DNA from: a virus
Virus record (IMG/VR): IMGVR_UViG_3300025411_000024
Location: 1 to 47,281 of that record
DNA length: 47,281 nucleotides
Strand: one strand, 5' to 3'
In this document: positions 6,601 through 29,055 of the stretch, in pieces
How positions within the stretch are numbered: the first letter of the stretch is position 1
How the letters are laid out: each line of letters opens with the position of its first letter
The notes under the pieces: model-generated
What the model was told of the DNA's origin: nothing
The model's input: the letters and a program-made list of their open reading frames with translations, nothing else
The model's database searches: none
Translations under genes and position numbers: made by a program

Positions 6601-9572
6601 TGACACTACACCCTAAAAAATTAAATCCTTTAAAAACTTACTTAAATGGTAGTAATCCACCAATGACAGTGGACGGATTGATAGTTGACGGTGTTTATGC
6701 AGTCACCGGAGTTATTGACACAATTACTCAAACTACAGATACTTATCAAGACCCACTAACTAACCAAACTAGTAATATTGGTGCATATTCATTCCCCCAG
6801 ACTCCAAATGTTAATGAATGGTATTCAGGAATAGTTGATGACCAAGTAAATACTACTTACAATTTAGCTTTTCAATTTAACAGAGACACTTACTGTAATA
6901 CAGTTAGTTTTAGTTTACTTCAAGTTCCTGTTAATTGGACACTAAATCTTATAACACCAAGCGGAACAACCCAACTATCAACTGGTGCTATAACTGAGTA
7001 TAACACAGATTACTGGCAATACATAGTTGTGCCCTTAGGTCAAACTTACCTTCTTACATCTTCAAACTCTTCACTTCAACTTGTACTTACTAAAAGGCCT
7101 ACAAATACACAATACCAACTTGGTGTAAGTAACTTTTTATTTAAACTAAATGTTCAAACTTTACAGGATATAACAGTTAATAACACGGTTGTTTCTGGTA
7201 TTACAACGCAAAGTATACTTGGTTTTGTAGAAAATTACAACCCTACTGTTTACAGTATCAATAATATTAATGATAATGACTCTACTACTTATTGGAAGTG
7301 TTCCCCACAACCTGTAGGAGATTCAGTTGTATATTTTGTAATTGATATGGGTTCTTTACAGTCTATAAATAAAATGTATATAGACCCATTATACACAGGG
7401 ACAATTTTTAATCTTTACTATTCTTTTGATAATAGTTACTGGTATCCTGTTCAAAGAGACTTTAGGCTTAAAAAAGGTATTTATCAATTGCCTACAATTT
7501 CTGCTCGTTATTTAAAGTTTGAATTCACTCAACTTACACCAGAACCTTATGACTTAAAGTTAGATTCTATCCAAAAAGTTATTAGTGTTTTCCCTGACTG
7601 GGTTGACAATTTTTATACAAACTCAGAAAGAGCAATCCCAGATATTGCTAATCAAAATTATGTATTTAGTTCAGCAGTCACACCAACTACTAATTATAAT
7701 ACAAATATTTCTTCAAACTCCTTCTATGGTGCAAGTGCAAGTACTTTAAATAGTTTAAATGCAATTGGGAATAACTCTTCTTCAAATTTTGTTAACTCTA
7801 ATACAACTATTACTGACCCCACAGTAAGTTATAAGACTGTCGAAAGTGTTGCCGGCCTTGGCTCAACATATAACCCAGTTACTGATGTTGCATTTATTAG
7901 TCGTAGATTCCCTTATGTAACACAACATATTTACAAACAAGTTCCAGTAAATCAAACTTGGCATGAAGCTTATTTTACAGGTATTAAGTCATTGAGTCTT
8001 TATGGTACTGACCAAACAGTTCAAATGGATTACCCTGACTTTACAGATTATTTAACAAATAACACAACAACAATTGTAAGTGGTTCAAGTACAGCTACTT
8101 TTAGAACTCCTTCAATTATAAATACTACTATAAGTGGTGTAACCTACTCGGTTGTTAGTGGTATGGGTTACACAGGCCTTGCTGGTACACAACTAATAAC
8201 AAAAAACTTAAAAACTTTTAGTAATTATCCAAGCTTTAAGTTTGCTGCTTTAAGTAGTGACTGGGTTCCTTATTTGACAAATGCCCAAACAGTACTACTA
8301 GGTTCAAATCTTGCAAACTTAGGTATTACTACTAGTGGTATATCAACTGTTTCTAACATACAAGGTAGTACAAACTATGGTGTATGGAGTTTTGTACCTA
8401 GTGGTAACCCTGTTCAAACTTATGTTCAATCGGCAGTTGTTGGTGGAGGCCAAAACCTTTTAACTACAGCAGAAGCATTTGTTATAAGTGGAACAGGATG
8501 GTCCGGTCCCTTAAGTGCAAATAGTGTTGTTACAAATGCATCTATTTCAGGTGTTACTAGTATTGGTTTGCCGGTATCAACAAATGTTTCTTGGGGTCAA
8601 CCTGATTATGGTAATACAGATTTTGGTTCTGATGCTTATAGTGTTACTCCATCCTTGGGTGCTATTCAACTTAGAGGATATACATTTATAATTACTGCAA
8701 GTGGTTCAGGTTCTGTTACTACTAATGTTACGTATAGTGGTGCTGGTGGGGTAACAACAAGTGGTTACACTACAAACATAAGTGGTGCAAACCAATTCTT
8801 GACATTTACAACTACTCAACCACTTAATACAAGTAGTGTAAGTTTTTCAATAGCAGTTTCTGGAACTGTTGGTTTAAGTCAAGCAGGATACTTCCTTGGT
8901 TCAAGTGGATTCACACCATCTTCATGGACACGGCCTTTGGTAACTAGTGGTATGAGAATTTCTGCAGTTTCAAGAATATACCTTCCTAATACTAGTTTTG
9001 GAACTTACAAATGTACACTTTATTCAAATGGTGTTGAGCTTGCCCACAAGCAATTTTCAAATATACCACCACGCACTTGGGTTGACATTGAAGTTCCCTT
9101 TACACTTGTTTCAGGTTACTACAATTCAAACAACTTTAGTACAAGACTAACTCAAACAAATGGCCAAGGAGAGTCTTATGACCTTGCAATGTTTGGAATC
9201 TTCTATAATCCAGTAACATGGGAGTATTGCTCAGATGGTACAGGGAATAACTGGAATTGGATTACCACAGGAATTAATGACCCTGATGCCACTATTAATC
9301 TAAGGGCTCCTAGCAACCAGATACAACTTAGAGGAACTATTCTTCAAGATAACGCACAAATTTCTTCTTTAACATTAGTCCCTAATTATACTCAAAGTCC
9401 TTACTACAGTACAACTCAAATTAATTATGTAGGAGATCCAAAGACAAATGAACTAAGTTGGAAGAGAACACCTGCTCAAAGACCACTATTCCAATTAAGG
9501 TCAGAACTACACCCTTCTCAATACGATATTGGTGTTCTGATGAACATAAGTTACCCATATTATCTAGATTAA
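6600..9572 (+). CDS. Large tail protein with F5/8 type C (discoidin)-like domain
   Basis: 990 residues. A segment of about residues 215-340 looks like a discoidin fold: NDNDSTTYWKCSPQPVGD, then VYFVIDMGSLQSINKMYI, FNLYYSFDNSYWYPVQ and ARYLKFEF, the order of strands expected in F5/8 type C domains, which bind sugars. The rest is Ser/Thr/Gly/Asn rich with repeated ISG and TSG steps and probably forms several beta-sandwich modules. As last gene of the baseplate group it is likely a peripheral baseplate or adhesion protein that contacts host glycans. Start ATG overlaps the previous stop codon by one base. Confidence 0.65.
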   Translation: MTLHPKKLNPLKTYLNGSNPPMTVDGLIVDGVYAVTGVIDTITQTTDTYQDPLTNQTSNIGAYSFPQTPNVNEWYSGIVDDQVNTTYNLAFQFNRDTYCNTVSFSLLQVPVNWTLNLITPSGTTQLSTGAITEYNTDYWQYIVVPLGQTYLLTSSNSSLQLVLTKRPTNTQYQLGVSNFLFKLNVQTLQDITVNNTVVSGITTQSILGFVENYNPTVYSINNINDNDSTTYWKCSPQPVGDSVVYFVIDMGSLQSINKMYIDPLYTGTIFNLYYSFDNSYWYPVQRDFRLKKGIYQLPTISARYLKFEFTQLTPEPYDLKLDSIQKVISVFPDWVDNFYTNSERAIPDIANQNYVFSSAVTPTTNYNTNISSNSFYGASASTLNSLNAIGNNSSSNFVNSNTTITDPTVSYKTVESVAGLGSTYNPVTDVAFISRRFPYVTQHIYKQVPVNQTWHEAYFTGIKSLSLYGTDQTVQMDYPDFTDYLTNNTTTIVSGSSTATFRTPSIINTTISGVTYSVVSGMGYTGLAGTQLITKNLKTFSNYPSFKFAALSSDWVPYLTNAQTVLLGSNLANLGITTSGISTVSNIQGSTNYGVWSFVPSGNPVQTYVQSAVVGGGQNLLTTAEAFVISGTGWSGPLSANSVVTNASISGVTSIGLPVSTNVSWGQPDYGNTDFGSDAYSVTPSLGAIQLRGYTFIITASGSGSVTTNVTYSGAGGVTTSGYTTNISGANQFLTFTTTQPLNTSSVSFSIAVSGTVGLSQAGYFLGSSGFTPSSWTRPLVTSGMRISAVSRIYLPNTSFGTYKCTLYSNGVELAHKQFSNIPPRTWVDIEVPFTLVSGYYNSNNFSTRLTQTNGQGESYDLAMFGIFYNPVTWEYCSDGTGNNWNWITTGINDPDATINLRAPSNQIQLRGTILQDNAQISSLTLVPNYTQSPYYSTTQINYVGDPKTNELSWKRTPAQRPLFQLRSELHPSQYDIGVLMNISYPYYLD

Positions 9573-12289: not shown

Positions 12290-12781
12290 ATGAGAAGAGA
12301 AAACCAAGAAGTTATTGATTACAGTTGGCAAAGTGATGCTATTTGTAAAGACCTACCAACAGATATGTTTTATCCTGGTAGAGGTTCGGTTGTCTCTAAA
12401 GTTATTAAAGAGAGATGTGCAATTTGTCCTGTAAAGGATGCCTGCCTAGAACATGCCCTTAAGTATGAAGCCCATGGTTATTGGGGTGGTACAACTGAAA
12501 AAGATAGAGTTGCCATTAGGATGAACAGAGACATAATACTTATCAAACCTGAAACAGTTTTTTGGTATAGTGTTAGTGAAGCAAAAAGAGAAAAAGAAGA
12601 AAACAGAACTAAGATTCAAGGGCGTGGTCGAAAGGCCAGAGTATGTGGTACATACAGTGCTTATAAAGGTCACTTAGGAAGAAAAGAAGTTCCTTGTGAA
12701 CCTTGTAAAAAAGCAAACAGAGATTACATTAATGATTTGAAAATTAAGAAAGCGGCGGAAAATGGGGAATTCACCTTTTAA
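12290..12781 (+). CDS. whiB: WhiB-like Fe-S transcription regulator with C-terminal Cys/His extension
   Basis: 163 residues, longer than most WhiB proteins (80-120). The four cluster ligands are Cys19, Cys43, Cys46 and Cys52 (C-x23-C-x2-C-x5-C), followed by the family turn GYWGGTTEKDR (residues 63-73). WhiB proteins bind the host primary sigma factor and are essentially limited to actinobacteria and their phages, which is the best host clue here. A second segment (residues 119-146) reads CGTYSAYKGHLG, then CEPC and KANRDY: a Cys/His pattern seen in other actinophage proteins and likely a metal site. A TATAAT box lies at 12281-12286, only three bases before the ATG, without a good -35 box. Confidence 0.9.
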   Translation: MRRENQEVIDYSWQSDAICKDLPTDMFYPGRGSVVSKVIKERCAICPVKDACLEHALKYEAHGYWGGTTEKDRVAIRMNRDIILIKPETVFWYSVSEAKREKEENRTKIQGRGRKARVCGTYSAYKGHLGRKEVPCEPCKKANRDYINDLKIKKAAENGEFTF

Positions 12782-13669: not shown

Positions 13670-14961
13670 TGGCAAAAACAAAAGTATTGGCGTACGGTGA
13701 TTACTGCTGTGCTACTGGGTTCGCTACCGTAATGGGTAACATTATGAGAGAACTAGAAGCAACAGGAAAGTATGACATTGATGTTGTTGCTATTAACTAT
13801 GACGGAGGACCTTTTGACCAAACCCAATGGCCCGGACAAGTATGGCCTGCTATCAGTGCACTAAGACAGCAAGGTCCTTACGCTGACCTTCATGGAAGAC
13901 AAGTTTTTCTTGACCGACTCCAGCAAGGTGACTATGACGTAGTATTCATTGTTCAGGACACCTTTATTATGTTGCCAATTACACCTCAGATTCTTGAAGT
14001 GCAACGTAACAAGCCAAAGAGTTTTAGTACAGTTTACTATTACCCGTTTGATTGTGGTCCAAAAGAAGAGTGGGTTACACAATGTGTTAACTCATTTGAC
14101 TTCCCAGTTGCCTATACACAATATGCAAAGAATGAAAGTATTAAGTGGAGTGGAACAGCGGCTGAAAAGCATGACGTTATCTATCACGGTACAAACACAA
14201 CTAACTTTTTCCCACTTCCTGAACAGGATAAGAAGCAAATTCGTTCTGCTTTCTTTGGTGACAATAAGGACCGTTTTATTATTATGAACCTTAATCGTAA
14301 TCAAGGTCGTAAAGATGTTAGTCGTTCCTTCATGATTTTAAAAGAACTTAGAGACCGTGGATACAAGGAACCATTCTTGTACATGCACATGCAAGAAACA
14401 GACTTTGGTGGAAGTATTATTGAGCAATCTAAGAACTTTGGCCTTGAACTTCAAAAAGATTGGATTCTTCCTAACCCAGGGCAATTCTCTGCACATGCAG
14501 GATTCCCAATTGAAGTTGTTAACCAACTTTACAACTCTGCAGATTGCTACCTAACTACCTGTATGGGTGAAGGTTGGGGGTTGAGTATTACAGAAGCAAT
14601 GGCAACTAAGACACCAATTGTTGTTCCAAACAATACTAGCATTCCAGAAATTACCGACAATGGTAAGCGTGGTTGGGTTGCAGGTTCTGGTGATAGTCCT
14701 TCACATTGGATTATTAAGGAAAATGACAACGACCGTATTCGTCCACTTATGAATGTAGAAGATGCTGCTGATGCAATTATCGAAATTATGGAAAATAAGA
14801 ACGGAATTGTAGAAAAGAAGGTTGAAGCAGCTTATGAGTTTGCCCAGGAACTAACTTGGAAGCATGTTATGAAAGACTGGACAAATGTCTTTAACAAGGC
14901 AGTTAACAAGTCTAAGAGTGCTAACCTTCTTAAGGGTGGAACAGTAGAATGGAAGAAGTAA
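13669..14961 (+). CDS. GT-B glycosyltransferase, group 1 type
   Basis: 430 residues. The C-terminal half has the GT4 donor site: MGEGWGLSITEAMATKTPIV (residues about 299-318), then VVPNNTSIPEITDNGKRGW, with the E-x7-E-like spacing of retaining GT-B enzymes. The N-terminal half begins KVLAYGDYCCATGFATVMGN, a GT-B acceptor-domain glycine loop. It would use a nucleotide-sugar to extend a glycan. The ATG overlaps the stop of the membrane protein gene and its own end overlaps the GT17-like gene by 13 bases, so the four genes form one transcript. Confidence 0.85.
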   Translation: MAKTKVLAYGDYCCATGFATVMGNIMRELEATGKYDIDVVAINYDGGPFDQTQWPGQVWPAISALRQQGPYADLHGRQVFLDRLQQGDYDVVFIVQDTFIMLPITPQILEVQRNKPKSFSTVYYYPFDCGPKEEWVTQCVNSFDFPVAYTQYAKNESIKWSGTAAEKHDVIYHGTNTTNFFPLPEQDKKQIRSAFFGDNKDRFIIMNLNRNQGRKDVSRSFMILKELRDRGYKEPFLYMHMQETDFGGSIIEQSKNFGLELQKDWILPNPGQFSAHAGFPIEVVNQLYNSADCYLTTCMGEGWGLSITEAMATKTPIVVPNNTSIPEITDNGKRGWVAGSGDSPSHWIIKENDNDRIRPLMNVEDAADAIIEIMENKNGIVEKKVEAAYEFAQELTWKHVMKDWTNVFNKAVNKSKSANLLKGGTVEWKK

Positions 14962-15719
14962 AAAGACAAGTAGTTGACATTGTTCTTTTTAATAACGAAT
15001 TAGAACTATTAGACCTTAGAGTAAAAATCCTAGAAGATGTGGTTGACTTCTTTATTATTAAAGAAGCAACTCACACCTTTCAAGGTGACCCTAAAGAATT
15101 ACTTTCTAAAACTTATGACCATCCAAAGGTATTCACTTATGTAGTTGAGTTCTCATCTGGAATGAACACCTGGGAAAGAGACAGGTTCCAAAGAGGAACT
15201 CAAATTGACCTTAGGGCATATGGTATTAACGAAGATTCTATTGTTATGACTAGTGACCTAGATGAAATACCAGACCCACAAGCAATTGAATGGGTAAGGG
15301 ACAATTTTAATCCAGCCGCTATGTATGCACTAGAACAAAAGATGCACCAATACTATCTCAATGTTAGAAACATGAGTGAACCCTGGGCAGGAACTAGAAT
15401 TTGTAGTATGGAAAAGTATCGTTTGATGGATGCTGAAACCATGAGGCATTCCCAACACCTTTGCATGACACTACCTGATGCTGGTTGGCATTGGAGTTTT
15501 CTTGGTGGTGAAAAGCAAATTGAAAAAAAGATTAGAAGTTATGCCCATGAGGAGTATGACAATGAAGAAACTATTCAGCAAATTGCAAAACGTATGGTCA
15601 ACAATGAAGATGTTTTTGGACGTGGTTTTACACTCAAAACAGTAGAATTGGATAACTCTTACCCTAAGTATATTCTTGATAATCAAGATAAACTATCCCA
15701 TTTAATTAGAAAAGATTAA
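14949..15719 (+). CDS. Family 17 glycosyltransferase
   Basis: 256 residues. It matches the GT17 family (beta-1,4-N-acetylglucosaminyltransferase type): VDIVLFNNELELLDLRV near residue 8, FIIKEATHTFQGDPK, WERDRFQR, the DxD-like MTSDLDEIPDPQAI (residues about 98-111) and DAGWHWSFLGG near 177. Only the family is clear; the sugar and acceptor in phages are not known from sequence. It is the third and last glycosyltransferase of the set and the ATG lies inside the end of the GT-B gene. Confidence 0.85.
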   Translation: MEEVKRQVVDIVLFNNELELLDLRVKILEDVVDFFIIKEATHTFQGDPKELLSKTYDHPKVFTYVVEFSSGMNTWERDRFQRGTQIDLRAYGINEDSIVMTSDLDEIPDPQAIEWVRDNFNPAAMYALEQKMHQYYLNVRNMSEPWAGTRICSMEKYRLMDAETMRHSQHLCMTLPDAGWHWSFLGGEKQIEKKIRSYAHEEYDNEETIQQIAKRMVNNEDVFGRGFTLKTVELDNSYPKYILDNQDKLSHLIRKD

Positions 15720-15995: not shown

Positions 15996-16069
15996 GCCCT
16001 TGTAGCTCAACTGGACAGAGCATCGGAGTTCTAACCCGCAGGTTGTAGGTTCAAGTCCTACCGGGGGCG
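15996..16069 (+). tRNA. tRNA-Arg (TCT)
   Basis: Acceptor stem GCCCTTG/CGGGGGC (two G-U pairs), D stem GCTC/GAGC, T stem GTAGG/CCTAC with TTCAAGT loop, discriminator G. The anticodon loop GTTCTAA gives TCT (16030-16032), reading AGA. The anticodon stem TCGGA/CCCGC has only three good pairs, with an A-C and a T-C mismatch at the ends. CCA is not encoded. AGA is very frequent in the phage genes, so it likely supplements the host. Confidence 0.85.
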
Positions 16070-16071
16070 CT

Positions 16072-16126
16072 GGTCAATAGTATCTGCTTAGTTTTCACCT
16101 CCTTTATACTAGGAGTGCTATTGACC
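16072..16126 (+). other. Long bipartite hairpin between tRNA-Arg and tRNA-Ser
   Basis: GGTCAATAG (16072-16080) pairs perfectly with CTATTGACC (16118-16126). Within it, CTCCT (16099-16103) pairs with AGGAG (16111-16115) and CA with TG after one bulged base. The structure fills the space between the two tRNAs, three bases after one and four before the next. It may direct tRNA processing; no T-run follows. Confidence 0.5.
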
Positions 16127-16130
16127 TACT

Positions 16131-16221
16131 GGAAGAATGGCCGAGTGGTTTAAGGCAGTTGTCTACTAAACAACCGTGGGTTTATAGCCCACCGAGGGTT
16201 CGAATCCCTCTTCTTCCTCCA
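16131..16221 (+). tRNA. tRNA-Ser (ACT)
   Basis: Class II tRNA with encoded CCA. Acceptor stem GGAAGAA/TTCTTCC, anticodon stem GTTGT/ACAAC perfectly paired, loop CTACTAA giving anticodon ACT (16165-16167), long variable arm CGTGGG...CCCACC, T stem GAGGG/CCCTC. The anticodon reads AGT, the favoured Ser codon of the tail genes. Bacterial AGY decoding normally uses GCT, so an A at position 34 is unusual. The discriminator base is T rather than the usual G for serine. Whether it is charged by host SerRS is unknown. Confidence 0.85.
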
Positions 16222-16223
16222 CC

Positions 16224-16304
16224 GGATGGGTAGCGAAGTGGCCAAACGCGGCTGGCTGTAAACCAGTTCTTTATTGTTCGGGGGTTCGAATCCCTCTCCA
16301 TCCA
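16224..16304 (+). tRNA. tRNA-Tyr (GTA)
   Basis: Acceptor stem GGATGGG/TCCATCC, anticodon stem GCTGG/CCAGT (last pair weak), loop CTGTAAA with anticodon GTA at 16258-16260, a long variable arm as expected for bacterial tRNA-Tyr, T arm GGGGG/CCCTC with TTCGAAT, discriminator A. CCA is not encoded. It follows tRNA-Ser by two bases. Confidence 0.9.
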
Positions 16305-16305
16305 C

Positions 16306-19725: not shown

Positions 19726-20145
19726 GTGCAAACATTTTTACCATACGCAGATTTTGAAAAGTCAGCAAAATCATTGGACCGTCAACGACTTGGTAAACAA
19801 CGTGTAGAGACAATGCAAATTATGAACGCAATTCTTAATCCGAATTACGGTTGGCAAAGTCATCCAGCAGTAAACATGTGGAGAGGTCATGAAACTACAT
19901 TACTAGAATACCAAAAAGCAATTTGCAATGAGTGGGTTAGTCGTGGCTACAAAGATACATGCTTGCAAAAGACTATTGATTTGGTTGATTCTGTTAAGAC
20001 AAACACAACTAGGCCTGGTTGGATTGGTGACTATAAATTTCACCTTTCTCACCAAAGTAACCTACTTCGTAAATTACCAGACCACTATTCACAACACTTT
20101 ATAGGAGTCCCAGATGACTTGCCTTACTTTTGGCCAGGAGAATAA
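19726..20145 (+). CDS. MSMEG_6728 / Pyr_excise family protein
   Basis: 139 residues with a GTG start placed by GAGGAGG seven bases upstream. The protein follows the MSMEG_6728-type pattern seen in actinobacteria: MQTFLPYADFEKSAKSLDRQ, RLGKQRVETMQIMNAIL, HPAVNMWRGHE and CNEWVSRGY. The family is related by name to pyrimidine-dimer DNA glycosylases (T4 endonuclease V), which act on UV-damaged DNA. Whether this member has glycosylase activity is not established by sequence; a DNA-repair or DNA-handling role is a fair guess. Confidence 0.8.
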   Translation: MQTFLPYADFEKSAKSLDRQRLGKQRVETMQIMNAILNPNYGWQSHPAVNMWRGHETTLLEYQKAICNEWVSRGYKDTCLQKTIDLVDSVKTNTTRPGWIGDYKFHLSHQSNLLRKLPDHYSQHFIGVPDDLPYFWPGE

Positions 20146-21023: not shown

Positions 21024-21881
21024 ATGGATCTATACCTAGGAGCACCTTTTGCTCACATTCAATCATCTGCCCCTGGGTATGCATTAGCTCATGAAATGAC
21101 AGGTTTTACTGTTATGGAGCAATACAGTAAACTACCTAAACTTTTCCTTGATAATGGTGCTGATGAACTTGGAACAGGCCAGAGTGGTATGCGACTTGCC
21201 TATCTTGCAGGAAGATTAAAATCAAACTTTCTAATACTACCGGATGTCCTTCACAAAGATAAACTTACTAGAAAAAAGGGTGAGAAGTTTTTTGAACAAA
21301 TGAAAGATAGTGGATACCAAGGTAACTTTATTGGTGTAATCCAAGCAAAGACTTTGGAGAAAGGTCTTGAAAGTTACAAGTGGTGGGCAAGAAGTGGAAT
21401 GGTAGATAGGATTGGGATTACTTATGATACTAAGATCCCTAACACAACTTTTAAAGAGTTTGCATGGGGTGGAAGATTAAACTTTTTGTTTGAACTGGCA
21501 AAAACAAATGTTTATGACAATAATCCAATAGGACTTCACTTGCTTGGTACACTAGATGTGCATGAACTCTATGTATTAAACCACTATCCAGAGTTTGAAT
21601 ATATTATTAAGTATATGGTTGATAGTCATGATACTACAATGCCTTACGCTTGTGATACTCCATTTGTAGTTGAAGATTATTCAATTAAATTAGGGCGTGC
21701 AAAGGATTATCCCCGTCAAGATTTTAAAGCAAAACTAGAGGGTGAAAGACTTGAGATTGCTGAGTGGAATGTAGCGGCATACTTGACTGCTTGCAAGATT
21801 AAACCAAGTGACTGGCCAAAATATCTAGGTGATAAAGCAGTTCAATTATTTAGTGATTTTGAGTATCATTATGACCACTAA
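21024..21881 (+). CDS. TGT/DpdA-like 7-deazaguanine transglycosylase
   Basis: 285 residues with a TIM-barrel layout. LDNGA (42-46) and FLILPDVLH (69-77, Asp74 as candidate proton acceptor), GVIQAKT (104-110), the phosphate/base loop GLHLLGT (170-176) and MVDSHDTTMPY (198-208, Asp200 as candidate nucleophile) follow the order of tRNA-guanine transglycosylases. It is much shorter than bacterial TGT and lacks its C-terminal zinc site, as in phage DpdA proteins that swap guanine in DNA for a 7-deazaguanine. No bacterial-type QueA or other tRNA-queuosine step is nearby. The link to FolE/QueD/QueE six kilobases downstream supports DNA modification. Exact base and target are inferred. Confidence 0.7.
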   Translation: MDLYLGAPFAHIQSSAPGYALAHEMTGFTVMEQYSKLPKLFLDNGADELGTGQSGMRLAYLAGRLKSNFLILPDVLHKDKLTRKKGEKFFEQMKDSGYQGNFIGVIQAKTLEKGLESYKWWARSGMVDRIGITYDTKIPNTTFKEFAWGGRLNFLFELAKTNVYDNNPIGLHLLGTLDVHELYVLNHYPEFEYIIKYMVDSHDTTMPYACDTPFVVEDYSIKLGRAKDYPRQDFKAKLEGERLEIAEWNVAAYLTACKIKPSDWPKYLGDKAVQLFSDFEYHYDH

Positions 21882-22836
21882 GAAAACATTCCTTCTTGTT
21901 GATGGTCACAATGTTTTTATTCGTGCTTACTCAGGATTAGCAAAACAAGATTTTAGAAACTCTGATGGTATTGCAACTTGGGGTGTTTACGGATTCTTAA
22001 ATACCTTAACTTCAATGGTTCGTAGATACCAACCAACCCATGTTCTTGTTACTTTTGATAAAGGAAAAAGTAGCAAAAGACTTGAAATGTATCCTCAATA
22101 CAAAGCAAATAGAGATAAGGATTCTAAAGAAAGAATTGCTAAAAAAGTAGCGGCAGGAGAAGTAGATGAATTCTTGCCACAATTTGATTTGCTTTTTGAA
22201 TTCCTTAAATCAATGGGTGTACCATACCTTAGGATTAGTGGTGTTGAGGCAGATGATATTATTGCTAAGGCCTCAATTGAATTTGGTCCACTCTTTGATA
22301 AAGTTGTAATTATCAGTGCAGACCATGACATTAGACAACTAATTAGAAATAATGTTATAGTTGTAAAACCTAGTTTAAGTCAGAGTAGAGACGTTAAAGA
22401 AGAAGTATTTACAGTTGAAAAAACTCTTGAAGAATGGGGAGTTGAACCTTGGAGGTTACCAGAAATATGGGCACTCATGGGAGACAAGGGAGACAACATA
22501 CCTGGAGTACCAGGCATAGGACCAGTAAAAGCTAAAAAACTTATACAAGATTTTGGTAACCTTGAAAAAGCAATACAATCAGAAAAAGTAAACGAATATG
22601 AACCAACAGTTCGTAGAGCATTTAAACTTATTCAACTTGATGGTAAAGATGACATACCATTTCCACCTTTAGGAAATTTACAGTTTAACCCGATAACTAA
22701 AGAAATTCCCAATCATGGCTTGAAATTGCAGGAGATGCTCGACTATTTTGAATTTAATGTAATTAAAGAACGTTGGGAAAACAATGAACTTTGGTCAGAA
22801 AAGACCTTTGGTAGAAAGTTAGGAAACAATGGATAA
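21871..22836 (+). CDS. 5'-3' exonuclease (Pol I N-domain/FEN family)
   Basis: 321 residues from ATG 21871, which overlaps the previous stop; an upstream in-frame ATG at 21829 lacks support. Family motifs: TFLLVDGHNVFIRAY (residues 5-19), TFDKG, YKANR, GVEADDIIA, ISADHDIRQLI and the helix-hairpin-helix GVPGIGPVKAKKLI. All metal-ligand aspartates appear present. It would remove RNA primers and flaps during phage replication; there is no attached polymerase domain. It sits between the transglycosylase and the LuxE-like gene. Confidence 0.9.
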   Translation: MTTKKTFLLVDGHNVFIRAYSGLAKQDFRNSDGIATWGVYGFLNTLTSMVRRYQPTHVLVTFDKGKSSKRLEMYPQYKANRDKDSKERIAKKVAAGEVDEFLPQFDLLFEFLKSMGVPYLRISGVEADDIIAKASIEFGPLFDKVVIISADHDIRQLIRNNVIVVKPSLSQSRDVKEEVFTVEKTLEEWGVEPWRLPEIWALMGDKGDNIPGVPGIGPVKAKKLIQDFGNLEKAIQSEKVNEYEPTVRRAFKLIQLDGKDDIPFPPLGNLQFNPITKEIPNHGLKLQEMLDYFEFNVIKERWENNELWSEKTFGRKLGNNG

Positions 22837-23899
22837 CAAAAAAGTAGATAAGATAATTTCTAATGCAATAGAGTATGTTAAAGATCCGATTAATTCCCCT
22901 GACTTTAATACAGTTGCACTGGACCTTTATGACCTTCACCGTGAATTGAACCCAGTTTATAGTAAATATGACAAAGGTCCTTTAAAAGATTGGCGTGAAA
23001 TTCCATTAATGCCTATCGGTGAATTTAAAAAAGGTGATGTAGGGATTACTCTTAGTGACCGCATGCCTTTCCCTGGAGTAGAGTTCCATTCAAGTGGTAC
23101 AACGCAAGGTGACAAGAGTAAACACCGTATGTATGATACTGAACCTTATAGAGCAAGTATTGCTGCTGGTTTTAAGCAAAGTGTACACCCTACTAGTTAC
23201 CCTAGGTTTAGAGTTATTCTACTTACCCCTAAACTACCTAATAGTAGTTTATACTACATGATGAGTTATGTTAGTGAACTTTTTGACCATCGTGGAGTTC
23301 GTGAAGAGTTTGATGGACTAAATGACATGTTTAGGGTACAGGCATTACTAGATGAACTAAGAGAAGAAAAAGAACCAGTATTGTTATTTGGAACTAGTTT
23401 GGCCTTTTATGACTTGATGACTACCATAGAGACAAATGGAATGCAATCTTTTAAACTCCCAGAGAGTTCAATGATGATTGAAACCGGAGGTTGGAAGGGG
23501 AGAGACATTAAGATTACCCCTTGGGACTTAACTACTAAAGTAAGTTTGTTCTTTGACATATCTTTTGATAATTGTATCCGTGAATACAGTATGAGTGAAA
23601 TGTCTAGTCAACTATGGTCTTCAGGTAATGACCCAGGAAATGTAAATTATTATTGGCCTCAATGGTTGAGTGTTAGATTAGTTGACCCACTATCTCAAGT
23701 TGAGGTTCCTTATGGTCAAAGTGGTATTATTAGTTTTGTAGATTTAGCAAATGTTTGGAGTTGCCCCTTTATCTTGACCGAAGACATGGGCCACCTATAC
23801 AATGATAATGGAATTGATGCCCTAGTATTAGAAGGAAGAGCAATTAATGCACCTGAGAAAGGATGTAGTCTAACTTATGCGGAAGCAATGGGTAATTAA
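22829..23899 (+). CDS. LuxE-like acyl-protein synthetase (carboxylate-activating)
   Basis: 356 residues, near the usual LuxE length (about 370). The adenylate-forming loop FHSSGTTQGDK is at residues 86-96. YSMSEMSSQLW (near 250) and the C-terminal GRAINAPEKGCSL with Cys346 match the LuxE pattern in which a C-terminal Cys carries the acyl thioester. In bioluminescent bacteria LuxE activates a fatty acid with ATP and passes it to LuxC. No luxA, luxB or luxD is present here. With LuxC-like and aminotransferase genes next in line, the likely overall reaction is acid to aldehyde to amine. The acid is unknown; CDG made by the Que enzymes is a candidate. Confidence 0.8.
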   Translation: MDNKKVDKIISNAIEYVKDPINSPDFNTVALDLYDLHRELNPVYSKYDKGPLKDWREIPLMPIGEFKKGDVGITLSDRMPFPGVEFHSSGTTQGDKSKHRMYDTEPYRASIAAGFKQSVHPTSYPRFRVILLTPKLPNSSLYYMMSYVSELFDHRGVREEFDGLNDMFRVQALLDELREEKEPVLLFGTSLAFYDLMTTIETNGMQSFKLPESSMMIETGGWKGRDIKITPWDLTTKVSLFFDISFDNCIREYSMSEMSSQLWSSGNDPGNVNYYWPQWLSVRLVDPLSQVEVPYGQSGIISFVDLANVWSCPFILTEDMGHLYNDNGIDALVLEGRAINAPEKGCSLTYAEAMGN

Positions 23900-24911
23900 T
23901 CCAGATGTAGGTTTTTCTAAAGTCCTTGCAGAGTTTGGAAGATTCCTAGAAGAAGATTATAAGATGGCAATAGGTGCTTTAACGGTTCCCCACGCCTTTG
24001 AAGAGTACACAGAAAAGACAGGTAGAAATTTTGTAATTGTAGGAGCAAGGAGTGTACCAACCGCTACTGCAAAGAGTGTTTTCCTTTGTCTTAAATTGGC
24101 AGGACCAGAAAGTGTAACTGTAAAGGCACCAACAATTGATGAAGGTTTCTTAATTGATAATGTTATTGAATACTATGGTAAAGATATTAGGTGTAAGGTA
24201 TTCAATGACCCAAGTGAACAACTTGAATTATCACTAGAATGGCGTAAAGCACTTGATGAAGCAACAGATATAGTTGTTTTTGGTGGTGGTGACACAGTTG
24301 CTAGATTTAAAGAACTAGAAAATGAACATCGTCAAGTTCACATTCATGGTCCTAAGTTTTCATTTGGTATTGTTAGAGCAGAAGATTTAAGTCTTTCTTA
24401 CATGGAAGAAATTGGTTTTGATTTTTATTCATTCTATGGTGAAGGTTGTCTATCTCCAAAGTTTTATGTAGTAGTTGGAGAGACAGCACCACAAATGTGG
24501 AAAGAGATGTCTGAGGTTTATTCAAACCTTTATGCCTCATATGTTGATGAGTTTAGAGCAAAGTTGCCACTTTCAAGGAAAAGCGAATTAGTGCAACAGT
24601 TCCTAAACTCCAATTATGTAGCAAAATATATTCGTAGGGAAGACTTGAATTCTAATGAAATATTTTCTACACTTTATGGTGACGTACGCTTTATAGTAGT
24701 AGAAAGTTTAGATGATTTGGAAGAATTCATTGAAAAATGGCGTTTTCAAATTAGTACAGTAGCAATTAACGAACAAGATGATGAAATAGTAGATTTTGTT
24801 GAAAGTCATATGATTACTAGAATCTGTGATATTGGTCAGATGCAGTTCCCAGATTTCTTTGAACAATTTGACACAACAGATGACTTTGACATTTACACAG
24901 GAGGATATTAA
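23877..24911 (+). CDS. LuxC-like acyl reductase (aldehyde-forming)
   Basis: 344 residues, clearly shorter than LuxC (about 480); the missing part is mainly N-terminal. Visible family features are the nucleotide-binding area RNFVIVGARSVPTATAKS (residues 50-67), TDIVVFGGGDTVARF (130-144), HGPKFSFGIV (157-166) and the catalytic-type Cys191 in YGEGCLSPKFYVVVG. LuxC reduces an enzyme-bound acyl group with NADPH to the aldehyde. The start ATG lies 23 bases inside the LuxE-like gene, so the two are made together, as expected for partners in a complex. Confidence 0.75.
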   Translation: MRKQWVINPDVGFSKVLAEFGRFLEEDYKMAIGALTVPHAFEEYTEKTGRNFVIVGARSVPTATAKSVFLCLKLAGPESVTVKAPTIDEGFLIDNVIEYYGKDIRCKVFNDPSEQLELSLEWRKALDEATDIVVFGGGDTVARFKELENEHRQVHIHGPKFSFGIVRAEDLSLSYMEEIGFDFYSFYGEGCLSPKFYVVVGETAPQMWKEMSEVYSNLYASYVDEFRAKLPLSRKSELVQQFLNSNYVAKYIRREDLNSNEIFSTLYGDVRFIVVESLDDLEEFIEKWRFQISTVAINEQDDEIVDFVESHMITRICDIGQMQFPDFFEQFDTTDDFDIYTGGY

Positions 24912-26110
24912 TGAGTGATTATTTAGCTAGAACTAACCCTTGGCCTTACGACATAACAATTACTGGTGCAAAGGGTGGTTATTATCAAACTAAAGAGTAC
25001 GGGGACATGTTTGATATGGCCTGTGGTATTGCTGTAAACAATTTAGGTCACAGAAACAAAAAGATTCTTAATGCCTCATTGAAAGTTTTAGATAAGTATG
25101 CTCACGTTAATGTTTATGGTGAGTTCAATATTAAAGAGCAATTGAAGTATGCTGAACTATTAAGTGAACGTTTTTCAACCCTTACAATGAGTAATGGAAT
25201 TGATGAAAATAATAAAACTTGGTTCTGCACTAGCGGAACAGAAGCAAATGAACTTGCCATGAAGCTTGCAATGCTAAGTACACAAAGAAAAGGTTTCATT
25301 GCCCTTGAGAATGGTTTTCATGGACGTACTCTTGGAAGTTTGAGTTTAACTCACAAACCTCAATACAGAGAACCATTTAAGAGTATGGTTAACAAAAATC
25401 TTACTAAGTGGATTGTTCCTGGAGAAGAAATCCCAGATGAGTATAAAGACAGAGCAGCATTTTTTATGGAACTGGTTCAAGGAGAAGCAGGAGTAGTTGC
25501 TCAAGACAAAGAATGGGCAAAGTATGTTAGTGACTGGTGTCATGAAAATGGTGTTCTTTTGGTCATTGATGAAGTACAAACAGGGTTTGGTAGAACCGGT
25601 ACACACTTTGTTCTTGACCAATACCAAGATGTTTATCCGGACATTGTAACCTTGGGGAAAGCAGCAGGTGGAGGTTATCCTTTGGGTGCAGTAGTTGCTA
25701 GTTCTGAAAGGTGGAACTCTATTTCTAGAGACATGCCATTTGCTCACCTAAGTACATTCGGTGGTAATCCAATGAGTGTTGCTGCCGGTACAGTCATGTT
25801 TAAAGAAACAGAAAAACCACAACTTCTTGGTAATGTTAAAGATGGTGAAATACTAGCAAGAAGTGTATTCCAAGATTTTGAACATGCTTACATTAGAGGC
25901 AAAGGTTTGATGTTGGGGTTAGTTTTAGATGATGCAATTGATATAGATACAGTTGTTCAAAACATCTGGGACAATAAAGTTTTTTGTGGAAGAGTCTTAT
26001 ATGGGTCAAATACAATTCGTTTATATGCACCCTTGAATACCACACCATCAGATGTATATAATAAGTTCTTGAGGGTAAGAGACGCTGTAGAACAGAGTAT
26101 CAAGAGTTGA
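24911..26110 (+). CDS. Class III PLP aminotransferase (ornithine/acetylornithine type)
   Basis: 399 residues. All motifs of fold-type I class III enzymes are there: WFCTSGTEANELAMKLA (104-120), NGFHGRTLGSLSLT (134-147), VIDEVQTGFGRTG (218-230, Asp220 contacting the PLP ring), TLGKAAGGGYPLGAVV (247-262, Lys250 as the Schiff-base lysine) and FGGNPMSVAAG. Such enzymes usually transfer amino groups to terminal aldehydes, which makes a chemical fit with the aldehyde-forming gene directly before it. The ATG overlaps the LuxC-like stop codon. Confidence 0.9.
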   Translation: MSDYLARTNPWPYDITITGAKGGYYQTKEYGDMFDMACGIAVNNLGHRNKKILNASLKVLDKYAHVNVYGEFNIKEQLKYAELLSERFSTLTMSNGIDENNKTWFCTSGTEANELAMKLAMLSTQRKGFIALENGFHGRTLGSLSLTHKPQYREPFKSMVNKNLTKWIVPGEEIPDEYKDRAAFFMELVQGEAGVVAQDKEWAKYVSDWCHENGVLLVIDEVQTGFGRTGTHFVLDQYQDVYPDIVTLGKAAGGGYPLGAVVASSERWNSISRDMPFAHLSTFGGNPMSVAAGTVMFKETEKPQLLGNVKDGEILARSVFQDFEHAYIRGKGLMLGLVLDDAIDIDTVVQNIWDNKVFCGRVLYGSNTIRLYAPLNTTPSDVYNKFLRVRDAVEQSIKS

Positions 26111-26135
26111 TTTATTAATCAATCTAATATAAAAT
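26107..26135 (+). promoter_or_regulatory. Sigma-70-like promoter, TTGATT-17-TAAAAT
   Basis: TTGATT at 26107-26112 overlaps the aminotransferase stop codon; 17-base spacer; TAAAAT at 26130-26135. It starts the QueD-QueE-FolE operon, and the first gene has GTAAGGAG before its ATG. Confidence 0.65.
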
Positions 26136-26157
26136 AATAAGAAAGTAAGGAGAAGTA

Positions 26158-26382
26158 ATGCAAGAAAATATTGAAGAAATTCGTTCCAAACTTTGGGATT
26201 TGTATAACAGGTTTGCCAAAGCTCGTGGTGAATGGAATGATGGTTATAAACAAGGAGTTATGGACTCACTTTCAATTGTAAGTGAAGTAGACAGGGCTTC
26301 ACACAAGACAGATGAGAATGACCACTTTGTAGACATTGAAAAGTTTAAAAACAATTATTTTAAGAAGGATTTTGGAAAGTGA
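26158..26382 (+). CDS. Hypothetical protein, 74 aa
   Basis: Helical charged protein (MQENIEEIRSKLWDLYNRFA start). The GKARGEWNDGYKQGVMDSLS type of segment around residues 22-40 is seen in phage small proteins of unknown role. It opens the 7-deazaguanine operon and overlaps QueD by four bases (GTGA). No catalytic residues stand out. Confidence 0.6.
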   Translation: MQENIEEIRSKLWDLYNRFAKARGEWNDGYKQGVMDSLSIVSEVDRASHKTDENDHFVDIEKFKNNYFKKDFGK

Positions 26383-26834
26383 ATCTAATCTCTAAGGAAA
26401 TAGAATTTGACCTTGGCCATCGTGTTAGTACACATGGTAGCAAGTGTCGCAATCCTCACGGTCACCGTTATAAGGTTCGTGTAACTTGTGAAGGAGATAT
26501 TATAGATGATGTTAGCCGTCCTGACCATGGAATGCTTATTGACTTTGGTAATCTTAAGACAATTATGAACAAGCGTATCCATGATGTTTTAGACCACGGT
26601 TTTTGTGTATGGGAGAATGACCATGTTGTTCGTAACATGATGGAAGATGAGGCGCATGGCCAAGGTTGGAACTATATTGTTTTCCCTTACATACCAACAG
26701 CAGAAAACATTGCTCGTTGGTCTTGGGAAGAAATTAAGGACGACATTGAGGTAGAGTTTGGTAACGACCTCAGGTTGTATGAAGTAGCCGTGTGGGAAAC
26801 GCCTACATCGGTAGCCTATTGTAGAGGAGAATAA
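26379..26834 (+). CDS. queD: QueD, 6-carboxy-tetrahydropterin synthase
   Basis: 151 residues with a GTG start overlapping the upstream stop codon. Zinc ligands are His14 (FDLGHRV), His27 and His29 (CRNPHGHRY), and Cys23 is the catalytic cysteine, at the same spacing as in E. coli QueD. The C-terminal ENIARWSWEEI and LYEVAVWETPTSVAY also match. It converts dihydroneopterin triphosphate (the FolE product) to 6-carboxy-tetrahydropterin, the substrate of QueE, both encoded just downstream. It is longer than most QueD proteins because of an insert around residues 60-85. Confidence 0.9.
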   Translation: MNLISKEIEFDLGHRVSTHGSKCRNPHGHRYKVRVTCEGDIIDDVSRPDHGMLIDFGNLKTIMNKRIHDVLDHGFCVWENDHVVRNMMEDEAHGQGWNYIVFPYIPTAENIARWSWEEIKDDIEVEFGNDLRLYEVAVWETPTSVAYCRGE

Positions 26835-26836
26835 TA

Positions 26837-27034
26837 ATGGGTGCAGGAAAGAATTTTCTAAATTGGTTGCAAGGAACATTTGGTGGCAATAACAGTATGC
26901 CAGAAATCCCAGAAATTCCACTAGCAGTAGAGGCACCGAAGCCAGAACCAAAGAAGGCAAAGCCAGCAGCAAAAAAGGCAACAACTAAGAAAGCAGCACC
27001 TAAAAAGGCCGCACCAAAGAAGAAGGACCAATAA
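26837..27034 (+). CDS. Lys/Ala/Pro-rich histone H1-like tail protein, 65 aa
   Basis: The first 35 residues are a short neutral segment (MGAGKNFLNWLQGTFGGNNS, then PEIPEIPLAVEA). The rest is KPEPKKAKPAAKKATTKKAA and similar Lys/Ala/Pro repeats, as in bacterial histone H1-like proteins and C-terminal DNA-compaction tails. It is probably a DNA- or RNA-binding basic protein. It sits inside the Que operon between QueD and QueE. Confidence 0.6.
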   Translation: MGAGKNFLNWLQGTFGGNNSMPEIPEIPLAVEAPKPEPKKAKPAAKKATTKKAAPKKAAPKKKDQ

Positions 27035-27165
27035 TGCACGTAGTATTAGTATTTATTTTGCCAGCACTATTCTTTATGGGTGTTGGTGCTTTTATTCACA
27101 TGTTTTCTCAGGGTGTTAAAAGTGGCATTTATCAAAAGACTAAGGCACCAAAGAAGAGGAAGTAA
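27034..27165 (+). CDS. Small membrane protein, 43 aa
   Basis: Reads MHVVLVFILPALFFMGVGAF and continues with IHMFSQ, a single membrane helix, then a basic tail ending KAPKKRK. It is joined to both neighbours by TAATG overlaps. The basic tail resembles the preceding gene in composition. Function unknown. Confidence 0.55.
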   Translation: MHVVLVFILPALFFMGVGAFIHMFSQGVKSGIYQKTKAPKKRK

Positions 27166-27875
27166 TGGCTGATTTAAGACTAGTAGAACACTATGTAAGT
27201 ACCCAAGGTGAAGGTCCACGTACAGGACGTACAACACAATTTGTACGTTTTGCAGGATGCAACATGACTTGTGCTGGTTGGCCTTGTGATACACCATTTG
27301 CTGTAGATGTTAAAATTTGGGGCAAAGAAGGTGGAAGTTACAAAAGGACTCCAGGTGAACTTCTAGAAGATTGTAAGAGTAAGAGAGAAGAAACAGGTGC
27401 TAATAACATCTGTCTAACAGGTGGTGAACCTTTTCTTCAACCAAATGATAAGATGGATGACTTGATTATCCTTCTAACACAGAATGGTTTTGAGGTTGAG
27501 GCATTCTCTAATGGTAGTTTCCTTTACTCAGACATTGCTCTAGAACATGTTACCTTTATGATGGACTGGAAGTTAGGTGGTTCAGGAGAAGCACAAACTC
27601 GTAGAGAAAATCGTACAATGAACGCTGCTAAGATTCGTAATGGTAGCGGTATTAAGTTTGTTTGTAAGGATGGCAATGACTTTAATGAAGCATTGGAAGT
27701 TCATGATTTTCTAAAAGGGCAAGTCCGCTCAGGTGTAAGATTCTGGGCAGGTAGTGCCTGGGATGTTTACCCAACAAAAGATTTAGTAGCAAAGATGCTT
27801 GAACATCAGGTTCCATGGAGTCTAAATGTTCAAGTACACAATTATATTTGGCCCGCAAATGAAAGAGGAAGATGA
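27165..27875 (+). CDS. queE: QueE, 7-carboxy-7-deazaguanine synthase (radical SAM)
   Basis: 236 residues. The substrate-side STQGEGPRTGR motif (12-22) and the Fe-S cysteines Cys32, Cys36 and Cys41 in FAGCNMTCAGWPCDTPFA mark QueE. The spacing C-x3-C-x4-C differs from the usual C-x3-C-x2-C by two residues. LTGGEPFLQPNDK (near 83-95) is the SAM-binding GGE motif. The enzyme rearranges 6-carboxy-tetrahydropterin to CDG. It is flanked by QueD and FolE; the ATG overlaps the stop before it. Confidence 0.9.
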   Translation: MADLRLVEHYVSTQGEGPRTGRTTQFVRFAGCNMTCAGWPCDTPFAVDVKIWGKEGGSYKRTPGELLEDCKSKREETGANNICLTGGEPFLQPNDKMDDLIILLTQNGFEVEAFSNGSFLYSDIALEHVTFMMDWKLGGSGEAQTRRENRTMNAAKIRNGSGIKFVCKDGNDFNEALEVHDFLKGQVRSGVRFWAGSAWDVYPTKDLVAKMLEHQVPWSLNVQVHNYIWPANERGR

Positions 27876-28549
27876 TGACACCGAATGTACACTATACCAA
27901 AACAGGTATCTTAATAGAAGAAAGTAAGGAAATGAAGATTAAAAAGTCAAACCCACAAATATTGAATGAAAGTGATAGAGAAGCTTATGGTTTCCAAGTT
28001 GCTAAAGAAAATGTTAGAGGGTTGCTTAGTTACATGGGAGAAGATGTAAGCCGTGAAGGTTTGCTTGACACACCACGTAGAGTTGTAGAGATGTATGAGG
28101 AATTAACAAGCGGGTATGTAATGGACCCAATTGCAATTATTGAGAAAGCAGTTTTTCATGAGCAAACAAAAGAAATGGTTATTGTCAAGAACATTCCGTT
28201 TTATAGTCTATGTGAGCATCATCTTGCTCCTTTCTTTGGTACTGCTACTATCGGTTATCTTCCTAACAACGGCCGTATTGTTGGCTTGTCTAAACTCGCT
28301 CGTGTATTGGATGCTTACGCTCGTAGGCTTCAGGTCCAAGAACGACTCGGAGCACAAGTCGCAGATGCGTTCTATAAATCCTCTCTCAAACCGGAGGGTG
28401 TAGGAGTTCACATTGAAGCAGAACACCTTTGCATGGCAATGCGTGGTGTACAAAAGCCAGGTACCAGTACAACTACAGTTAGTATTCGTGGAATTTTTGA
28501 GTCAGACAAGGCAGTGAAAGACGAATGGACACGACTAGCCCTTTCGTAG
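27872..28549 (+). CDS. folE: FolE, GTP cyclohydrolase I
   Basis: 225 residues. Zinc ligands Cys114, His117 and Cys187 lie in YSLCEHHLAPFFG (111-123) and EHLCMAMRGV (184-193); GLLDTPRRVVEMYEEL (63-78) and IVGLSKLARVLDAYARRLQ are also standard. It makes dihydroneopterin triphosphate from GTP, the first step to 7-deazaguanines and folate. The two ATG codons at 27872 and 27875 overlap the QueE stop. It overlaps the next gene by 25 bases. Confidence 0.95.
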   Translation: MMTPNVHYTKTGILIEESKEMKIKKSNPQILNESDREAYGFQVAKENVRGLLSYMGEDVSREGLLDTPRRVVEMYEELTSGYVMDPIAIIEKAVFHEQTKEMVIVKNIPFYSLCEHHLAPFFGTATIGYLPNNGRIVGLSKLARVLDAYARRLQVQERLGAQVADAFYKSSLKPEGVGVHIEAEHLCMAMRGVQKPGTSTTTVSIRGIFESDKAVKDEWTRLALS

Positions 28550-29055
28550 GGGTACTAAACCCAGAAGAAGTAATCCGTAAAGGTTATATTTCAAACACAA
28601 TTACAGACAGGATTCAACCAAATAGCATTGACCTGACTGTTCAGAGTGTTTATGTAATCTCCGGACCACTGATTCTTTTTGCAGACAAAGAAACAAAGAG
28701 GCAATTACCAGAGTATAACTTAATAAAGCCTTTTCCTTATGAAGGAAGAGACATGTATTTGTTAGAACCTGGTATTCGTTATCAAGTTGAATTTAACGAA
28801 ACTCTAAGTTTTGATACTTCTATTTGTGGAATCACTCTTGTTCGTAGTACTATGGCAAAGAGTGGTTGCAGTGGTGAAAACGGTCTTTTTGACAGTGGAT
28901 ATCATGGTGCATGTGGAATGATGGTATCAGTGCAAACACCTTCTTATATTGAAGTTGGTTCAAGTATTGCACAGATGGTTTTCTTTTCTACAAACAGTAG
29001 TAAAGTTTATAATGGTTTCTATCAGGGATCCGAAAGCCCAATGGAGTGGAATTAA
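28525..29055 (+). CDS. dCTP deaminase / dUTPase-fold protein
   Basis: 176 residues. IQPNSIDLTVQS (30-41), ITLVRSTMAKSG (103-114) and NGLFDSGYHGACGMM (119-133) fit the shared Dcd/dUTPase fold with Asp123 at the phosphate-cleaving position. The Glu that activates water in dCTP deaminase (E138 in E. coli) appears replaced by Met132 or Met133 in my hand alignment, so dUTPase or another nucleotide-pocket role may be more likely than deamination. It belongs to the end of the Que operon. Confidence 0.75.
   Translation: MDTTSPFVGVLNPEEVIRKGYISNTITDRIQPNSIDLTVQSVYVISGPLILFADKETKRQLPEYNLIKPFPYEGRDMYLLEPGIRYQVEFNETLSFDTSICGITLVRSTMAKSGCSGENGLFDSGYHGACGMMVSVQTPSYIEVGSSIAQMVFFSTNSSKVYNGFYQGSESPMEWN

Follow-up and report, generated by a model that had tools for sequence, protein, structure and literature searches.

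The described route to 7-aminomethyl-7-deazaguanine (preQ1) relies on QueC, which leads to the nitrile preQ0, followed by QueF, which converts the nitrile into an amine (PMC6884629). In the LuxC-LuxE system the acyl group is attached to Cys364 of LuxE, in Photobacterium phosphoreum, and to Cys286 of LuxC, within the motif YDQQACFSTQ (PMC8301110). The window analysed here, which is a single IMG/VR virus record (IMGVR_UViG_3300025411_000024) taken over its whole length of 47,281 bases, holds relatives of both systems in one block at positions 21024-28549. The gene order of the block is transglycosylase-like, 5'-3' exonuclease, LuxE, LuxC, class III aminotransferase, an open reading frame (ORF) of 74 amino acids, QueD, QueE and FolE; every named gene is an open frame within these limits, and all features of the block given below are on the + strand. 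Judged from its genomic context, the triad of LuxE, LuxC and aminotransferase is very probably part of a 7-deazaguanine pathway in some way. The preferred reading, to which a probability of about 0.62 is given, is that the triad carries 7-carboxy-7-deazaguanine (CDG) through an acyl adenylate, a LuxE thioester, a LuxC thioester and an aldehyde to preQ1, which would then enter the DNA, the triad replacing QueC and QueF. The locus is thus most likely a known DNA modification pathway carrying a new middle section.

According to this reading, FolE, QueD and QueE would convert GTP into CDG. LuxE would adenylate the 7-carboxylate of CDG and then hold the acyl group on Cys346 as a thioester, while LuxC would accept it on Cys191 and reduce it to 7-formyl-7-deazaguanine. 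The aminotransferase, probably using glutamate as donor, would turn the aldehyde into the aminomethyl group of preQ1, and the transglycosylase would swap preQ1 for guanine in the phage DNA. As LuxE, LuxC and the aminotransferase would together turn CDG into preQ1, neither QueC nor QueF would be needed. The first step is chemically plausible for LuxE, since QueC likewise activates the CDG carboxylate as an adenylate. A route from CDG to preQ1 had been proposed in an earlier, sequence-only reading of the window, and the lack of queC and queF, the position of the triad in the Que row and the retained catalytic residues all favor it; the substrate, the product and the DNA destination, like the individual chemical steps, the amino donor and the stage at which the triad acts (free base or DNA), are still what we infer.

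The lack of QueC and QueF, also noted in that reading, holds beyond the window. Contigs of 106,651, 68,328 and 132,935 bases encode LuxC, aminotransferase and LuxE proteins identical to those of the window, and all 19 window query proteins match the largest of them (G003, 132,935 bases) at 100%, the window DNA not being an exact substring of it. QueC (PF06508) was found neither in the window nor in these three longer contigs, which belong to the same phage and reach 133 kb (those of 107 and 133 kb bear out the earlier observation), nor in any of seven triad records, and QueF (PF14489) was found neither in the window nor in nine other records. Contig G001 was part of the same-phage QueC search and of the QueF, amidoligase, luciferase, QueA and aminotransferase searches, and G002 of the QueC search only. 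As a control of sensitivity, the QueC profile detected its target in 12 (searches of the window and the triad records) or 14 (search of the longer contigs), and the QueF profile in 10, of 14 known genomes. A motif-pattern scan directed at QueC, QueF and amidotransferases gave no match. No end repeats were found in the 132,935- and 132,618-base contigs of two different triad phages, and the completeness of these two contigs is therefore unproven. A tRNA queuosine pathway was also considered and rejected, as QueA (PF02547) was found in none of nine records.

Searches with LuxC, the aminotransferase, LuxE, QueE and the transglycosylase delimit five lineages that carry the triad, the window phage included; near-identity within two pairs of the seven triad records (L014 with L015, L017 with L018) sets the count at five. 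Compared to the window protein, LuxE is 71% identical in L007/L015, 65% in L008/L018 and L009/L017, 70% in L016 and 59% in L019. The LuxE search gave 38 pattern hits, of which nine proved to be LuxE relatives, every one from the triad clade. The order transglycosylase-exonuclease-LuxE-LuxC-aminotransferase-QueD-QueE-FolE is identical in the window phage, L007/L015, L008/L018 (with L009/L017) and L019. The L016 contig contains the transglycosylase and stops inside the aminotransferase, its Que genes falling beyond the contig end. The sequence-only reading had asked for the triad beside Que genes in relatives without QueC, and such a row is confirmed in the four lineages whose contigs extend far enough.

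The distribution of QueC and LuxE was compared in 43 records, namely 35 other QueE-like records taken from 44 QueE loci (L032-L068 without L049 and L051), the seven triad records (L013-L019) and L023, a relative treated below; the contigs that contain the triad QueE loci L025-L031 were covered by way of other loci. Of the 43 records, 23 have QueC and seven have LuxE, with zero overlap: QueC is found in 0/7 triad and 23/35 other QueE-like records, LuxE in 7/7 and 0/35, respectively, some of the 35 being merely weakly QueE-like (L054, L055, L057-L068; E 1e-14 to 3e-4). Among the 21 records with QueE of at least 38% identity, 17 have QueC. In the remaining four (L033, L038, L043, L053) QueE is at most 1.3 kb from the contig end, so that QueC may have been cut off. 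The class III aminotransferase follows the same split, being present in all eight triad records and absent from L023 and from the 16 QueC records examined (of the 23), an absence that is weak for the five of these 16 shorter than 13 kb. In L032, an otherwise different phage with a QueD 76% identical to that of the window, QueC is located immediately before QueD-QueE-FolE, the spot held in the window by the aminotransferase and the small ORF. From such comparisons it looks as if QueC has been replaced within a shared module.

LuxE (22829-23899) is a LuxE-like acyl-adenylate/acyl-protein synthetase (PF04443, 8.6e-11), scoring 41.8 bits and thus above the curated cut-off of 24.9. In the PDB its profile has a single match up to E 1, namely LuxE 7xc6_E (1.2e-13). 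Its Cys346 (codon TGT, 23864-23866, checked; motif KGCSL) aligns with position 364 of the 7xc6_E chain and is invariant across the five triad lineages. With 35 bits against a cut-off of 550, the protein falls below the bioluminescence equivalog NF052244; it may work like LuxE and is not the fatty acid equivalog. The LuxC-like acyl reductase (23877-24911; PF05893, 1.6e-7), with an aldehyde dehydrogenase (ALDH)-like fold, likewise scores above its family cut-off (31.1 versus 21 bits) and below that of the bioluminescence equivalog NF052251 (14.5 versus 750 bits). Its Cys191 (codon TGT, 24447-24449; FYGEGCLSPK), kept in all five triad lineages, is taken to be the counterpart of Cys286 in LuxC, its motif having been matched to YDQQACFSTQ by eye. 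Comparison of the LuxC profile to PDB sequences retrieved no LuxC, but fold comparison did: the best match of the predicted model (mean predicted local distance difference test, pLDDT, 73.1) is LuxC 7xc6_A (Z 17.6, 292 aligned residues, root-mean-square deviation 5.5 Å), followed by aldehyde dehydrogenase folds at Z 15.7 and below, and residues 188-191, the cysteine included, are modelled at low confidence. Translated searches (tblastn) with LuxE and LuxC against 50,697 phage records gave no match up to E 0.01. Scans of genome contigs with the LuxE and LuxC alignments, which need conserved short peptides, yielded 35 and 30 pattern hits, respectively, none of which was confirmed as a relative. 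A bioluminescence operon was rejected, because luciferase (PF00296) was not found in any of nine records.

The class III aminotransferase (24911-26110) covers the full-length Aminotran_3 domain (PF00202, 6.9e-71; 239.5 bits versus a cut-off of 30.5). The nearest NCBIfam models are of the ArgD type and remain far under their cut-offs (258.3 versus 457 and 255.3 versus 410.05), and the acetylornithine aminotransferase 8ht2 is matched in the PDB (3.8e-62). Lys250 (codon AAA, 25658-25660, checked; VTLGKA), which we take to be the lysine binding pyridoxal 5'-phosphate, is invariant in the alignment. Within the triad the aminotransferase has diverged least between lineages: with the near-identical B-B2 pairs excluded, its identity is 66-77%, that of LuxE 54-72% and that of LuxC 48-72%. 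In phages at large the aminotransferase matches 70 records, at 30-34% identity among the 15 matches listed. Synonymous divergence (dS) was saturated or high in many pairs and infinite in 17 of 93, and the ratio of nonsynonymous to synonymous divergence (dN/dS) is therefore given for lineages A (L007) and B (L008) alone, where it is 0.26 for LuxE, 0.19 for LuxC and 0.11 for the aminotransferase. These sequence-based ratios indicate that all three genes are under purifying selection. A reading of the block as a relic or a chance assembly was ruled out, since five lineages have kept intact frames and the dN/dS values stay well under 1.

A relative without the pathway bears on the proposed mechanism. 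The contig G010 (L023; 106,865 bases) has neighboring and replication genes at 50-81% identity. Its frames, searched with profiles, yielded LuxC, and neither QueE, the transglycosylase, LuxE nor the aminotransferase; tblastn with the window proteins gave no QueD or FolE match, and QueC and QueF were not found there either. In its LuxC homologue (L023:9995-11050) the acyl cysteine is exchanged for arginine, the motif being GEGRLAPKF compared to GEGCLSPKF in the triad phages. That the acyl cysteine should be missing where the partners of LuxC are missing is a prediction of the proposed thioester mechanism.

The transglycosylase (21024-21881; 285 amino acids) is the most distant member of the block. 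New phage 7-deazaguanines and DpdA subfamilies were reportedly described by Cui et al. in 2023, and a later DpdA subfamily is reported to cover Campylobacter phages of the CP220 kind. The protein has no Pfam, PHROG or NCBIfam family match and nothing usable by sequence in the PDB; profile comparison, and tentatively fold comparison, point to a distant DpdA/tRNA-guanine transglycosylase (TGT)-like DNA guanine transglycosylase. With tblastn, 24 phage records gave weak matches (E 0.002-0.1 among the 20 listed), to proteins of CP220-type Campylobacter phages, Bacillus and Weizmannia phages and Flavobacterium phage immuto, the last being annotated as DNA guanine transglycosylase; in immuto, BSP7 and Youna2 the matched proteins are located near QueD, QueE and FolE. 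A profile alignment (hhalign) to CP220 gp56 and the immuto DpdA, BSP7 and Youna2 proteins reached E 1.2e-15 (probability 98.6), by which the TGT/DpdA-like gene of the sequence-only reading is upheld as a distant homologue. Asp43 and Asp203 are invariant, in motifs common to the annotated DpdA of immuto. The first 20 PDB matches of the predicted model in Foldseek are all TGTs, with a best E of 1.3e-3 and none at or below 0.001, the model being of low confidence. With the related phage family, the match to the DNA-guanine transglycosylase 7ui4 was no better than E 0.56, along an HLLG...SxDxxxP stretch, and an unrelated protein came out at 0.46; the motifs of this stretch also align in order with the Escherichia coli TGT, but at E 0.048 and probability 1.1. 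The DNA of phages CP220 and CPt10 carries dADG (PMC8306585), and in Campylobacter firehammervirus DNA the replacement of deoxyguanosine is described as complete (PMC10273834).

The remaining genes complete a tightly packed row, six of the eight neighboring gene pairs overlapping by 1 to 23 bases. The overlaps amount to 11 bases between transglycosylase and exonuclease (counted from ATG 21871), 8 between exonuclease and LuxE, 23 between LuxE and LuxC, 1 between LuxC and aminotransferase, and 4 each between small ORF and QueD and between QueE and FolE, while gaps of 47 and 330 bases precede the small ORF and QueE, respectively. The coupled arrangement of the LuxE-like, LuxC-like and class III aminotransferase genes had been recognized from the sequence alone and agrees with the Pfam matches and the overlapping frames, and the same is true of FolE, QueD and QueE, which are supported by Pfam and PHROG. 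What had been overlooked is the 5'-3' exonuclease between transglycosylase and LuxE (21871-22836; PF02739, 4.1e-39, searched as 21868-22836), for which 21871 is the first in-frame ATG and GTG 21829 the start given by the ORF lister; it probably has a role in replication or repair. The small ORF (26158-26382; 74 amino acids) has no Pfam or PHROG match and a weak relative in G010 (37.8% over 45 amino acids). QueD, the 6-carboxytetrahydropterin synthase (26379-26834), matches PF01242 (PTPS/QueD, 3.2e-33) and PHROG 2389 (5.3e-36), and with 84.3 bits it is just under the cut-off of 89.25 of NCBIfam TIGR03367. QueE, the 7-carboxy-7-deazaguanine synthase (27165-27875), matches PHROG 2076 (2e-34), has the CxxxCxxxxC cluster motif and scores 102.2 bits (3.2e-29) to NCBIfam TIGR03963, under its cut-off of 260.1. 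FolE, the GTP cyclohydrolase I (27872-28549), matches PF01227 (1.2e-69) and weakly the QueF-II model (19.7 bits versus a cut-off of 86.9).

In four of the five lineages one to three amidoligase genes (PF12224) are located upstream of the transglycosylase (L008:2663-5298; L007:4919-5848; L016:4993-6697; L019:4011-5713 and 7311-8093). The family was detected in six of nine records, and not in G003 and G001 (contigs of the window phage) or G010. A methyltransferase-like gene directly precedes the transglycosylase in L008 (5291-5941), with look-alikes recognized by eye in L016 (7562-8227) and, nearby, in L019 (6583-7308); these assignments are weak and under Pfam cut-offs (Pfam for L008 only), and no such gene is listed at the corresponding place in the window. 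Since amidoligases couple carboxylates with amines, they would have a use for the amine of preQ1, which they may extend in these four lineages. A more far-reaching and still tentative proposal, held with clearly less confidence than the preQ1 route itself, is that the nitrile-free conversion of CDG to preQ1 evolved in phages, whose hosts are probably actinobacteria, and fully replaces QueC and QueF together, and that the amidoligases and the methyltransferase-like enzyme of sister phages extend the amine into larger hypermodified guanines of a kind not yet seen.

The triad could also serve another purpose. It might make an amine from a different acid (fatty, sugar or amino) for a glycan, a lipid or another DNA hypermodification, sharing only its timing with the Que genes, while CDG itself or preQ0 from a host QueC is inserted into the DNA. 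The known LuxE/LuxC pair indeed yields a fatty aldehyde (PMC8301110), terms such as luxC/luxE or acyl-protein synthetase/acyl-CoA reductase occur in papers on flagellar glycosylation (PMC7874193, PMC4875605), and LuxC is kept in G010 without Que genes. However, none of the tested records has LuxE or the aminotransferase without the transglycosylase or together with QueC, the sole glycosyltransferase-like gene tested (window 14949-15719, named by eye) is unmatched in the triad-bearing G008, and the nine records searched lack a luciferase gene, which renders this explanation unlikely. Somewhat less likely again is that the triad acts on DNA, CDG being inserted first as dCDG, which is found in phage DNA, and then reduced and aminated in place. 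No second, DNA-binding domain was detected by Pfam in LuxE, LuxC or the aminotransferase. For phage QueF, PMC6884629 leaves open whether it acts before or after insertion, whereas the LuxE and LuxC of known function use free acids and enzyme-bound acyl groups (PMC8301110). A final base other than preQ1, with the 7-formyl base as the end product of LuxE-LuxC or with the aminotransferase joining this base to a larger amine, appears improbable: relatives have amidoligase and methyltransferase-like genes next to the transglycosylase, which suggests that end products differ from phage to phage, but the aminotransferase shows the highest conservation within the triad and is present in every triad record, and the amine needed by amidoligases would fit preQ1.

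Several observations nevertheless weigh against the CDG-to-preQ1 route. Long-chain fatty acids are what the known LuxC-LuxE complex works on (PMC8301110), and LuxC may have another role, as G010 retains it without the rest of the pathway. All triad phages share one common backbone and constitute one clade, so the exchange of QueC for the triad may be a single evolutionary event; IMG/VR records are possibly incomplete and many of the QueC records are short. QueC could also be supplied by the host. Phages that insert CDG itself or a decarboxylated form are said to have been reported by Cui et al. in 2023, in which case a phage might lack QueC and still have no need of a bypass. As to the transglycosylase, its predicted structure is of poor quality (mean pLDDT 58.8), TGTs did not stand out in VIA-align (Z at most 6.8, with DpdA 7ui4 at Z 6.0 amid other barrels), and profile comparison with the DpdA of phage 9g gave no useful match. 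The link through CP220 gp56 is further weakened, because Campylobacter phages of the CP220 kind are suggested in PMC6884629 to insert the base without DpdA.

Outside the block, a dCTP deaminase-like gene (window 28525-29055) overlaps the end of FolE and is kept in L007, L008 and L019, with no match in G010. A pyrimidine dimer DNA glycosylase gene (PF03013; window 19726-20145) is located upstream of the block, and a UV endonuclease gene (UvdE, PF03851) is found upstream in L008 (1256-2278), with a similar gene recognized by eye in L007 (3843-4910). The window further contains three consecutive tRNA genes at 15996-16305, Arg(tct), Ser(act) and Tyr(gta). A WhiB family regulator gene (12290-12781; PF02467, 6.2e-14) suggests an actinobacterial host.

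In the open-licence literature searched, no report of this gene set and no mention of 7-formyl-7-deazaguanine were found, and among the matches listed none combined LuxE or LuxC with 7-deazaguanine. If the proposal is true, an aldehyde route to preQ1 would represent new base chemistry, the rule that QueC marks a complete 7-deazaguanine pathway would be broken, and surveys keyed to QueC and QueF would overlook such phages. Aldehydes and amines are moreover handles for DNA labelling or further modification, and a preQ1-type base can shield phage DNA against bacterial defences.

Compared to the phage preQ0, preQ1 and G+ pathways, the locus is alike in clustering FolE, QueD, QueE and a TGT-type transglycosylase, but the pathways outlined by Hutinet et al. 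(2019; PMC6884629) continue with QueC and QueF, Gat-QueC or ArcS where LuxE, LuxC and the aminotransferase are found here. Campylobacter phage CP220, with its dADG-carrying DNA (PMC8306585), has a related DpdA-type protein, annotated as hypothetical. Flavobacterium phage immuto (MW353176) shares a related DpdA-type protein with QueD, QueE and FolE beside it, and differs in having an annotated QueF. With the LuxC-LuxE fatty acid reductase (PDB 7xc6) the window shares both acyl cysteines and the ALDH-like LuxC fold, whereas its row lacks a luciferase, has an aminotransferase downstream and is surrounded by Que genes. In ArgB-ArgC-ArgD and LysZ-LysY-LysJ an acid is activated as an acyl phosphate, reduced to a semialdehyde and transaminated, and the class III enzyme of these systems is related to the aminotransferase of the window. 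The logic is the same, but the activated forms proposed here are an adenylate and an enzyme thioester, and the substrate would be a base rather than an amino acid.

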